Source of the DNA: Acidobacteria bacterium 13_1_20CM_3_53_8 | GTDB lineage: Bacteria; Acidobacteriota; Blastocatellia; Pyrinomonadales; Pyrinomonadaceae | Reading direction: 5' to 3' | Assembly: GCA_001920415.1 (NCBI GenBank) | Contig: MNJR01000142.1 | Location: 17,327 to 81,326 of the forward strand | DNA length: 64,000 nucleotides | Shown: positions 4,040-22,576 of the stretch, one piece after another | Numbering within the stretch: position 1 is the stretch's first letter | Layout of the letters: each line of letters begins with the position of its first letter | Position numbers and translations under genes: made by a program | Notes under the pieces: model-generated | Told to the model about the DNA's origin: nothing | What the model saw: only the letters and a program-made list of their open reading frames with translations | The model's database searches: none

Positions 4040-6451
4040 TCAATGGGGCGTCGCCCTTTTCTTCTTCGTGGAATTACCCTGCTGCCTGTTAGCCGCGCCG
4101 CCCGTGCTGGCCTCTCGCACGGTCGCACGATTGCCGCCCGCCGCCGGGCGCGTAGAGTTAGATGCAGGGCGCGCCCCTTCCGTTATCGTCACGTTCAAAA
4201 TTCTGTCGCCGCGCGCTATCTGGTCAACTACGTTCATGCCGTCTGTGACTCGACCGAAGACTGTGTAGCCGCCGTCCAGGTGCGGTTGCGCAGAGTGCGT
4301 GACGAACCACTGCGAGCCGCCAGTGTCTTTGCCCGATAGAGCCATGCCGACCGCGCCGCGCTCGTAAGCGACTTCGTTTATCTCGCAGCGAATCTGGTGG
4401 CCGGGGCCGCCGTTCCCGTCGCCGCGCGGGTCGCCGCCTTGAATCACGAAGTTTGGGACGACGCGATGAAAAGTTAAGTTATTGAAGAAACCTGTGCGCG
4501 CCAACTGCACGAAGTTGTCAACGGTGAGCGGCGCATCGTCCGGCAAAAGCTCAATCGTGAATGAGCCTTTCGTAGTGTTGACTACGGCGCGCACGAGTTT
4601 GCCGCTCCGAGCGAGCGCGCGGCGATAATCCGCTGCGGTGTTGCGCGTCTTCACCGTTCCTATGCGCGCGGAGAAATCGCCTGCATTATTTTCCCTCAAG
4701 CGCTCGACCGCGCGACGACGAATCAAATGATCCTGAGAATCAAGCGCGCTCTTGATAGCATCGTTCGCTTTTGTAGTCTTCTGTTTTGCGAGCGAATCGA
4801 GAATGGAGAGAGCAGCATCGTTCATCTCATCACGCATCGCTGCGGGCAGAGCTTCCACAAGCGCGCGAGCGTTCGTATCGTCCGGCGGCAGATCGCCAAG
4901 CATATCCGCTGCGTTTGCGCGAACTATCACGTCCGGGTTCTTTAACTCTTTCCGCAAAATTTCTGCGAGGTCTGCGGGCTTGAAAGCCGCAAGAGCGCGC
5001 AAGATATCTGGACGAGCGAGCGCAGGCAGAGGCGGATCGTTTAAGAGCAAGCGCAACATGATTGACGCATCAGCTTGCAGAAAGACTATGCCGTTGCCGG
5101 CAGCAGCCGCAGTCATCCCTGCGATTTCGTTTAGTCCCTGCGCAAAGCTCGACGCAACGTGCCAGTCGGCTTGCAGCCGTTCGCGCGTTGCTTGAGATGA
5201 AAGCTGGCTGAGCGGCGATTCGTGCAGATAAGCTGCGGGCGCGATTCGCGCGAAAACTATTTCAATTTCCGGCGCTGTCAATGCTTCAGCCGCGCGAAAT
5301 TCTCGCAGCCAAGCAATGGCATCCTGATTGTTCGTGCTTGCTAAAATGCGACCGAGCGTGGTCGCTATTTCCAGAAGCTCTATGACTTCGGCAGGCTGGT
5401 AAACGGGCGGCCTGTAAGCGGCTCTGCTGAAGTGAGAGAAGAGCGTCTTAGCCCGTTCGAGCAGAGGCGCGGCTGCGCTCGCAACTTTCAATGCTCCGAG
5501 CGCGCGAATGGCGCTAACGCGAACGCGCGAATCGGTGTCATTAATAGCGCGCTGCAACAGCAAGTCTGCGGAAGATTGATCCTCGGCAGCGCCTAGGGCG
5601 CGTGCGGCGTTTGCGCGCACGACGGCGTCCGTGTCTCTCGTCAACAGAGTGCGCAACTGCGAATTAGCATTCTTCGCTTTCAGTCGCGCGAGCGCGTTTG
5701 CAGCGTCTGCGCGAACTCGCGCGTCCGGGTGTCCCAGGAAATTCACTATCACAACGCTCGCGTCATCAGGCTTGGCGCGCAGCGCAGCCGTCAGCCCCGC
5801 TAGGCTCACCTCTCTAACGGGCTGCCTGCGATTCAGGCTCGACTCGAAACGAAGTGCGTCAAGAATTGCTTCGCCCAGGATGTGCGCGTCCACGGCCTGC
5901 GCTTTCGGCAGTGCGGCGGCTATCTTGCCCATAGCCTCTATTGCGCGCACGCGCAGTTCGCTTACATCGTGCGACCTCTCGCCTTTTTCGCTATCAATCA
6001 GAGCCGATATGGCATCGTCCGTTCCCGCAGGAGCTTCAATTTCGCCGAGCGCAAACGCGGCCATCGCGCGAACGCTCATGTCAGCATCCGCGCGCAACAG
6101 ATTCACAAGCGCTTCAACCGATTCTACATTTCCTATGCGCCCGGCAGCGAGCGCAGCACGACGACGAACGCGCGCGTCTCTGTCAGAGAGCAGTGCGGCC
6201 AACCGTTCGTCCCAACGCCGCTCGTCCTCCGCGCTCACGATGCGCAGCATAATCTCTTCAGAGATTGGCGACGGTGTCGGCGCTGGCGCTGATGCTCGCG
6301 GCTGCGGCTGTTGATTGGAACGTGCGCGCCCCTGTCCCGCTATGATGTTTGAGAAGAAGAGGCAGAACGCGCAGGCTAAAGCCGCGCAGAGGCCAGCGCG
6401 CCACTTTAGCGAAGCGACGTGCGTGAGCTTTTTAGCCGAACAATTCGTCAT
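4040..6451 (-). CDS. HEAT-repeat / cyclophilin-type peptidyl-prolyl isomerase fusion
   Basis: The protein has 803 residues. An N-terminal hydrophobic stretch (about 15-38) suggests export or anchoring. Residues of about 70-610 carry many HEAT-like repeats rich in RRRAALAAGRIG and VRANAARALG motifs. Residues 620-756 form a cyclophilin domain with TFHRVVPNFVIQGGD, GSQWFVTH and HLDGGYTVFG, which includes the usual catalytic Arg, Phe and Gln. A basic tail ends in KKKRATPH. It probably assists folding of exported proteins, with the HEAT solenoid as a docking surface (inference). It is the first gene of a three-gene minus-strand operon. Confidence 0.88.
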   Translation of the reverse strand: MTNCSAKKLTHVASLKWRAGLCAALACAFCLFFSNIIAGQGRARSNQQPQPRASAPAPTPSPISEEIMLRIVSAEDERRWDERLAALLSDRDARVRRRAALAAGRIGNVESVEALVNLLRADADMSVRAMAAFALGEIEAPAGTDDAISALIDSEKGERSHDVSELRVRAIEAMGKIAAALPKAQAVDAHILGEAILDALRFESSLNRRQPVREVSLAGLTAALRAKPDDASVVIVNFLGHPDARVRADAANALARLKAKNANSQLRTLLTRDTDAVVRANAARALGAAEDQSSADLLLQRAINDTDSRVRVSAIRALGALKVASAAAPLLERAKTLFSHFSRAAYRPPVYQPAEVIELLEIATTLGRILASTNNQDAIAWLREFRAAEALTAPEIEIVFARIAPAAYLHESPLSQLSSQATRERLQADWHVASSFAQGLNEIAGMTAAAAGNGIVFLQADASIMLRLLLNDPPLPALARPDILRALAAFKPADLAEILRKELKNPDVIVRANAADMLGDLPPDDTNARALVEALPAAMRDEMNDAALSILDSLAKQKTTKANDAIKSALDSQDHLIRRRAVERLRENNAGDFSARIGTVKTRNTAADYRRALARSGKLVRAVVNTTKGSFTIELLPDDAPLTVDNFVQLARTGFFNNLTFHRVVPNFVIQGGDPRGDGNGGPGHQIRCEINEVAYERGAVGMALSGKDTGGSQWFVTHSAQPHLDGGYTVFGRVTDGMNVVDQIARGDRILNVTITEGARPASNSTRPAAGGNRATVREASTGGAANRQQGNSTKKKRATPH

Positions 6452-21724: not shown

Positions 21725-22019
21725 TCCTTCGCCCTCATCCCTTCTTTATCATCTATGTCTCGCAGCCTCTTCTTCGACGCTCGCTAGCATCTCCTGTAAA
21801 TCTGTCTTTGACAAAAATCTTCCGCCCATGACGACCGTTTCGATGAAGGATTATTTCTTTTTTGAGCGAATGAGGAGAGAGGCAGTGTGATGAGGAGCAG
21901 AAACGAGCACGCTTTGATGAAAGCGATTCTAAGCACAAAGAAAGTAGTATAAACTGATAAGCATCGAAGAGATATGATGTGCCCTCGCCCCGACTCGAAC
22001 GGGGAACCAACAGATTATG

Positions 22020-22424
22020 CATGCCACTACGGCTTTCGCCGCCCCCTTAGAATTTTCGATTTTGGATTTGCGATTTTAGATTGGAAGAGGATTGAAGATT
22101 TAAGAATAACTGCTCTTCATCCTTATCCAATCGAAAATCTAAAATTACAAATCGAAAATCCCTTCAGGTTTGTGGTCTGGACTATACCTTCGCTTTACGC
22201 GCTCGCCGTCTAGTCTCTCGACCTTCCTCAAAAAGCTTGAGGCTTGGTTCGGGATTACCATACCGCTTTCGCTGGCTTAGGCTTCCCCGAATTTGACGAG
22301 TTCTACAAGCGCGCCTGAAACAAATTCCGAAAAATCTCGGACTTGAGTGTAATGCGCTTGCAACCCATTTTTGAAAGTCTTATGGATGAACATGGCTCAT
22401 CCACTTAGACCTTTCAAAGAACTG
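22020..22424 (-). ncRNA. group I self-splicing intron (IC3-like) in the tRNA anticodon loop
   Basis: The 405-nt intron lies between U33 and C34, with U before the 5' site and G as last intron base. The internal guide GGUCU (22407-22411) pairs with exon AGACU, giving the expected U-G wobble at the splice site. P2 is the hairpin at 22384-22402. Core elements are GGGGAAGCCUAAGCC (about 22279-22294), AAUCCCGAACCAAGCC (22241-22256), the P7 strand GAGAGACUAGACGG (22206-22219) and its partner AAGGUAUAGUCCAGAC (22175-22190). They resemble cyanobacterial tRNA-Leu introns. No homing endonuclease frame is present. Confidence 0.9.
22052..22160. repeat. GATTTTGGATTTGCGATTTTAG-family hairpin inside the intron
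   Basis: Arms 22052-22084 and 22126-22160 are inverted copies of the units found in intergenic elements at 35788-35908, 40796-40912 and 46274-46385. The loop ends in CTCTTCATCCTTATCC, also seen in another hairpin family. It lies 3' of the P7 strand, so it would extend a P9-type peripheral stem. Confidence 0.85.
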
Positions 22425-22576
22425 AGTCTGCTGCTCTAACCATTGAGCTACGAGGGCACAAAGTTTTCAGTAGCTGCTTCTTTGAAGTTTAGTGAAAAGT
22501 TGGCGCGCGAGCAACCGCCGAAGAGCATCTGTTGAGAGGCGAGCACTTTCGTTTAGTGAAAAGTTTGAAGGGAGAT

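Follow-up and report, generated by a model that had tools for sequence, protein, structure and literature searches.

An IC3-like group I intron before the wobble base of a tRNA-Ile2(CAU) gene in an acidobacterial genome

The split tRNA gene and the fold of its intron

A tRNA gene with the anticodon CAU was identified on the minus strand of the window (the whole 64-kb stretch of DNA analyzed) at positions 21980-22457, where it is interrupted after U33 by a group I intron of 405 nt (Table 1). Without introns, ARAGORN reported zero tRNAs across the window; with introns permitted, it reported this tRNA(CAU) and its intron. The spliced exons, GCCCTCGTAGCTCAATGGTTAGAGCAGCAGACT|CATAATCTGTTGGTTCCCCGTTCGAGTCGGGGCGAGGGCA, comprise 73 nt that form a complete cloverleaf with the loop CUCAUAA, and the CCA end is not encoded. 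The junction U33|C34 was the sole shift in the ARAGORN solution that kept a mature tRNA together with a U before the intron and a G at its end. A sequence-only reading of this DNA had proposed the perfect 73-nt cloverleaf with the loop CTCATAA, the 405-nt intron between U33 and C34, and the bordering U and G; the cloverleaf was recovered from the joined exons and by ARAGORN, while the length, site, and bordering bases agreed with ARAGORN. Split in this way, the gene is invisible to standard tRNA searches, so genomes of the host's group appear to be without a tRNA-Ile2.

Table 1. Features of the split tRNA-Ile2(CAU) gene and its intron, in order of transcription
Feature	Positions	Strand	Remarks
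5' exon of tRNA-Ile2(CAU)	22425-22457	-	Bases 1-33 (33 nt), last base U33
Group I intron	22020-22424	-	405 nt; preceded by U, last base G; RF00028 match 22145-22348
P1-loop hairpin, GGUCU...GUGGAUGA / UCAUCCAU..AGACUUUC	22373-22411	-	Site of the antisense HNH gene in relatives
8-codon frame MDEHGSST-stop	22382-22408	+	Start and stop positions are those of the relatives' HNH gene
P10 candidate, G22366, U22367, A22368 with C34 A35 U36		-	
Internal guide GGGUUG (most likely)	22361-22366	-	Pairs with exon G30 A31 C32 U33; U33-G wobble at the splice site
P2 hairpin (CAAGCGC / GCGCUUG)	22306-22360	-	Immediately 3' of the guide; two-sided changes in 7/7 pairs among relatives
P3 5' strand CUCGUC	22295-22300	-	3' strand GGCGAG 22202-22207; 100% of cells paired; two-sided changes in 5/6 pairs
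P4 (UUCGGG 22286-22291 / CCCGAA 22248-22253)	22248-22291	-	Encloses P5
P7 (GACUA 22211-22215 / UAGUC 22180-22184)	22180-22215	-	Encloses P8 (22191-22201); 100% of cells paired
AT-rich imperfect palindrome, P9 region, 112 nt	22050-22161	-	Copy of a dispersed genomic repeat; outside the catalytic core
Intron 3' end, GGC-GAAA-GCC hairpin and terminal G	22020-22045	-	Conserved in relatives
C34 of tRNA-Ile2(CAU)	22019	-	Wobble base, predicted lysidine site
3' exon of tRNA-Ile2(CAU)	21980-22019	-	Bases 34-73 (40 nt)

The check suggested in the sequence-only reading, a search with the Rfam group I model, gave a match for RF00028 on the minus strand with 40.3 bits and an E-value of 1.1e-8. This score lies below the gathering score of 50, so that with the curated cut-offs Rfam returned no matches anywhere in the window. 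Some introns at the same site in relatives do pass the cut-off, for example with 58.0, 56.1, and 55.9 bits.

The core fold was examined among 40 same-site introns from several phyla, using the pairs of P2, P3, P4, P5, P6, P7, and P8 as named from the window. Pairing was kept in 96.8% of the cells and fell to 44-47% when partners were slid by one column. The covariation score was 0.561, compared with 0.163 +/- 0.010 for shuffled data and at most 0.10 for the slid alignment, and changes on both sides of a pair were counted in 295 cells as against 92 in the shuffles. Covariation was strong in the individual helices, where the proportion of paired cells was 100% in P3 and P7, 97.9% in P4, 97.5-100% in P6, and 95.8% in P8. 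The window also contributes compensated pairs of its own, specifically CUCG/CGAG in P3 and an A-U pair in P7 where most family members have U-A.

The intron hence has the P3-P8/P4-P6 core and P7 pseudoknot by which group I is defined structurally, and its boundaries are those of the group, with the U before the 5' site paired to a guide G and a G as the last base. The Rfam match and the covariation of the core both support the earlier identification as group I, and the P7-type strands that it had pointed to are present. Over aligned bases, the core is ~70-72% identical to two Azoarcus-type Ile2 introns of Betaproteobacteria, and the label IC3-like, likewise retained, rests on this core similarity. 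Judged by its sequence and by comparison, the intron RNA almost certainly removes itself from the tRNA precursor.

The internal guide and P10

The guide is most likely GGGUUG, located just before P2, as suggested by an alignment of 76 introns (L070, L087, and L106 were anchored on the alignment, L214 was added by hand, and the anchor of L181 is doubtful). The pair between exon base 31 and the guide was A-U or G-C in 74 of the 76, where the shuffle maximum was 62. Specifically, the guide carries U or C as exon base 31 is A or G: GGGUUG accompanies the constant exon GACU, and GGGCU. accompanies exons ending in GGCU, a combination found in tRNA-fMet of several phyla and in tRNA-Ile2 of Chloroflexota. 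Two introns do not fit, one of which (L181) looks mis-anchored, with GGGUUG further upstream, while the other has a G-U pair. Among the points against the reading as a whole, P1 is short, with four pairs of which two are G-U. A G precedes the guide and is able to pair with C34, and the whole anticodon CAU is pairable with an intron AUG; a P10 of at least three pairs is available in only 39 of the 76 introns, namely that of the window and 38 others.

The sequence-only reading had placed the guide of the group I intron at GGUCU (22407-22411) instead. This segment is present and could form five pairs with the exon bases AGACU, including a U-G at the splice site. However, among 24 family members the exon is constantly GACU while the segment varies (GAUCU, AACCU, GGCCU, ACUCU, and others), such that the pair at exon position -1 is lost as a U-G in half of the 24 and the pair at -2 is lost in 10. 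The segment covaries instead with positions 22374-22379, with which it forms a separate hairpin in the P1 loop (pairing in 128 of 144 cells, at most 118 in row shuffles), whereas GGGUUG tracks the exon across phyla. GGUCU was rejected as the guide by this comparison, and we consider its use very unlikely.

With GGGUUG as the guide, the intron can be compared with the Azoarcus-type group IC3 intron, which is found in Betaproteobacteria in the same tRNA, tRNA-Ile(CAU), and has the same type of core. Two introns of the comparison set (L307 and L308) are taken by us to be of this type from their guide GUG and from the sequence of the Azoarcus intron. Their guide, like that of the window's intron, is short, lies immediately before P2, and places a U-G at the splice site. 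In contrast, they are inserted after U36 (U36|A37) with the exon CAU and the guide GUG, features that the window's intron lacks, as it is inserted at U33|C34 with the exon GACU and the guide GGUU. A guide of 3 nt has been described for the Azoarcus intron (PMC6274277).

Identity of the tRNA and the proposed order of splicing and modification

The split gene combines the anticodon CAU with a body of the tRNA-Ile2 type. Its joined exons resemble intact 73-nt tRNAs of relatives (91% in L127), which are themselves tRNA-Ile2-like, and their nearest genes in E. coli are annotated as tRNA-Ile. The same genome encodes TilS (180.5 bits) and one intact CAU tRNA (L021), which has a different body resembling that of elongator tRNA-Met. 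Together, these observations back the assignment to tRNA-Ile2 made in the earlier reading. An elongator tRNA-Met would share the anticodon, and Met is the label given by ARAGORN from the anticodon alone; yet the body resembles tRNA-Ile2 as found in relatives and in E. coli, and the distinct Met-like body is that of L021, which makes this identity highly improbable, even more so than the use of GGUCU as guide.

Among the tRNAs read in the assembly no tRNA-Ile(UAU) was present, and neither an intact tRNA-Ile2 nor an fMet gene was found in the assembly. Without an fMet gene the assembly must be incomplete, and an extra intact Ile2 gene might conceivably lie inside an assembly gap; the split gene is the only tRNA-Ile2 gene confidently assigned to this acidobacterial genome. 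Least probable of all is a decayed intron in a pseudogene, with AUA read by another tRNA, for which the missing endonuclease gene, the dispersed repeat in the P9 region, and a second tRNA(CAU) gene in the same assembly (contig C59) could be cited, but against which stand the flawless cloverleaf of both exons, the intact core helices (P3 and P7 having compensated pairs specific to the window), the lack of an intact tRNA-Ile2 or a tRNA-Ile(UAU) among the genes found in the assembly, and the nature of the C59 gene, which is also interrupted, by a group II intron, and lies on an 8.3-kb contig that is probably a contaminant, given its Chloroflexota-like tRNA-Ile2 body.

The C59 locus (L157, region 4482-5130) consists of an Ile2-like tRNA(CAU) split near 38/39 by an ORF-less group II intron of ~550 nt (RF00029, 64.5 bits). 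To our knowledge, group II introns seem rare in bacterial tRNA genes.

Overall, we are confident that the locus is best explained as an IC3-like group I self-splicing intron in tRNA-Ile2 at U33|C34, with the guide GGGUUG and from a lineage common to many phyla. Group I introns are removed through two transesterifications, started by guanosine. In the window, the split gene would be transcribed as one piece, after which the intron would fold and GGGUUG would bind exon bases 30-33. Guanosine would then attack after U33, and the released 5' exon would attack after the intron's terminal G while P10 keeps C34, A35, and U36 bound to the intron AUG. Exon joining at C34 would yield a normal tRNA(CAU), in which TilS would turn C34 into lysidine and thereby enable the decoding of AUA as Ile, and the cell would presumably depend on splicing for this tRNA. 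TilS is expected to act after joining because C34 sits in the other exon and is paired in P10. In addition, lysidine forms a pair with A and not with G, which means that modifying C34 too soon would destabilize P10. It is plausible that C34 can become lysidine only once the intron is gone, as the sequence-only reading had suggested; the same would apply to any anticodon-loop intron. One possible obstacle to rapid folding is the dispersed repeat near P9.

A further proposal combines several elements: a bacterium-wide intron lineage specialized for U33|C34 of CAU tRNAs, an Ile2 branch spread by the antisense HNH gene of the P1 loop, and a strict gating of lysidine by splicing through the pairing of the intron AUG with the anticodon in P10. 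This combination is put forward tentatively, and as a whole we find it rather doubtful. If strict gating were true, the amount of AUA-reading tRNA available could be determined by how efficiently the intron is spliced.

Distribution, endonuclease genes, and other introns of the family

Related introns at the same site of the same tRNA were found at 25 distinct loci in the host's own and neighboring families. Same-site loci of Pyrinomonadaceae, Aridibacter, and Acidobacteria gp4, together with their identity to loci of the own family, place the host in the Acidobacteriota, class Blastocatellia. The presence of the intron varies, as several of the host's relatives have an empty site. This distribution was extended by a pattern search across named genomes. 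Among the matches listed, the U33|C34 site was used in tRNA-Ile2 of Betaproteobacteria (Accumulibacter, Rhodoferax, Glomeribacter, and Chitinilyticum), Planctomycetota (Pirellula and Gemmataceae), and Chloroflexi/Chloroflexota, as well as in tRNA-fMet of Patescibacteria (Kaiserbacteria and Nomurabacteria), Rhodothermales, Omnitrophota, Nitrospirales, and Elusimicrobia. Several pattern matches, such as L189, L193, and L232, were dismissed as chance.

The kind of intron is already known, as group I introns are reported in tRNA-Ile2 of Acidovorax and Burkholderia in a passage of PMC8450103 that states no site; these share the tRNA and the intron group with the window, while the host phylum differs. 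The related Betaproteobacteria Rhodoferax, Glomeribacter, and Accumulibacter have exactly the window's site among the matches listed. Similarly, that source reports group I introns in tRNA-fMet of Synechocystis and Gloeobacter, likewise in a CAU anticodon loop but of a different tRNA. The fMet introns outside Cyanobacteria among the matches listed, those of the five groups named above, are inserted at U33|C34 like that of the window, and their guide GGCU matches the exon GGCU.

The host is hence an addition to a known kind, and so, as far as the literature searched (mostly open-access papers) shows, are its insertion site and the HNH gene encoded antisense in relatives. The sequence-only reading had known of no description of this combination of host and position. 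Its site is not singular, occurring at 25 loci and in other phyla, while an earlier report of such an intron in Acidobacteriota was not found in that literature. In a tRNA gene review, the group I introns listed for bacterial tRNAs are confined to Cyanobacteria and alpha- and beta-Proteobacteria, with most of them at 37/38 (PMC4033280). In the present analysis, such introns interrupt tRNA-Ile2, Asn, Lys, Leu, and Arg within a single bacterial family, where they occupy 33/34, 34/35, and 35/36; insertion at 33/34 is seen again in other phyla. Group I introns of 22-49 nt have also been claimed in cyanobacterial tRNAs (PMC5733544), although inserts of this length could not accommodate the core of a group I intron, and the claim was set aside.

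An antisense ORF of 105-122 codons was found in 13 same-site introns (12 from the search of the host's family, and L220), with its start and stop codons within the P1-loop hairpin. It was identified as an HNH endonuclease by PHROGs (phrog_2255, E 2.5e-21) and picked up weakly by Pfam (E 0.035). Its median dN/dS of 0.11 (8 measurable pairs) indicates purifying selection in the relatives, where the endonuclease would drive the homing of the intron into tRNA-Ile2 genes that lack it. A homologous-looking antisense ORF occupies the same place in a Chloroflexota intron (L240), and in one intron of the family (L124) the ORF is a LAGLIDADG gene in sense orientation instead (E 1e-19). Antisense homing endonuclease genes are also described in nuclear rDNA group I introns (PMC9548176), but there the genes are of the His-Cys type and the host DNA is eukaryotic rDNA, whereas the window's relatives have HNH genes in bacterial tRNA-Ile2.

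The window's intron has no frame of more than 66 codons (stop to stop) and neither an HNH nor a LAGLIDADG gene. Lacking the encoded homing endonuclease of a mobile intron, which its same-site relatives have, this copy is now likely immobile on its own. The 8-codon frame in its P1-loop hairpin may be the footprint of a lost HNH gene, though the stem alone could also yield it. For the repeat in its P9 region (AAAATCGAAAATC... type), BLAST gave 131 matches within the genome, many of which correspond to the two arms of a single copy or to both strands. Together, the HNH-bearing, HNH-less, and empty sites form a natural series in which site choice, homing, and splicing before modification are testable.

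Two more tRNA introns and one 23S intron were found in the same genome. The first (L001, G000:C75:76547-76811) is a 263-nt group I intron (77.2 bits) at U35|U36 of tRNA-Asn(GUU), which is also present in many family members; a reading of this split tRNA as Thr was rejected. The second (L003, G000:C60:38726-38916) is a group I intron at U35|U36 of a tRNA best read as Lys(CUU), the Arg proposed by ARAGORN having been rejected, and contains an AT-rich palindromic insert resembling that of the window's intron. The 23S rRNA group I intron (L002, G000:C97:99-352; 68.4 bits) lies between GAGACAGT (before) and TCGGTCCC (after). Across the host family (L005-L126), group I intron matches occurred in 52 of 119 genomes, with sites in tRNA-Leu(UAA) at U34|A35 and tRNA-Arg(UCU) at U34|C35 in addition to those in Ile2, Asn, and Lys.

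Arrays of tRNA genes were observed at contig ends, with 17 tRNAs in L009 (G000:C9:132421-134277) and six in L011 (G000:C53:123818-125012, on the window's contig). Among their genes are intact Asn(GUU) and Lys(CUU), the same tRNAs that introns interrupt at other places in this genome, and the two arrays are perhaps one broken array or a mobile element. In Elusimicrobia, the same-site intron of a tRNA-fMet (L209) is 664 nt long and has a sense ORF of ~170 codons with KIQVK-like motifs, possibly a PD-(D/E)XK nuclease like I-SspI. In a Rhodocyclales genome (L306), a split tRNA that ARAGORN labels Asp is better interpreted as Asn(GUU) interrupted at U35|U36, and under this interpretation the same site of tRNA-Asn would also be used outside Acidobacteriota.
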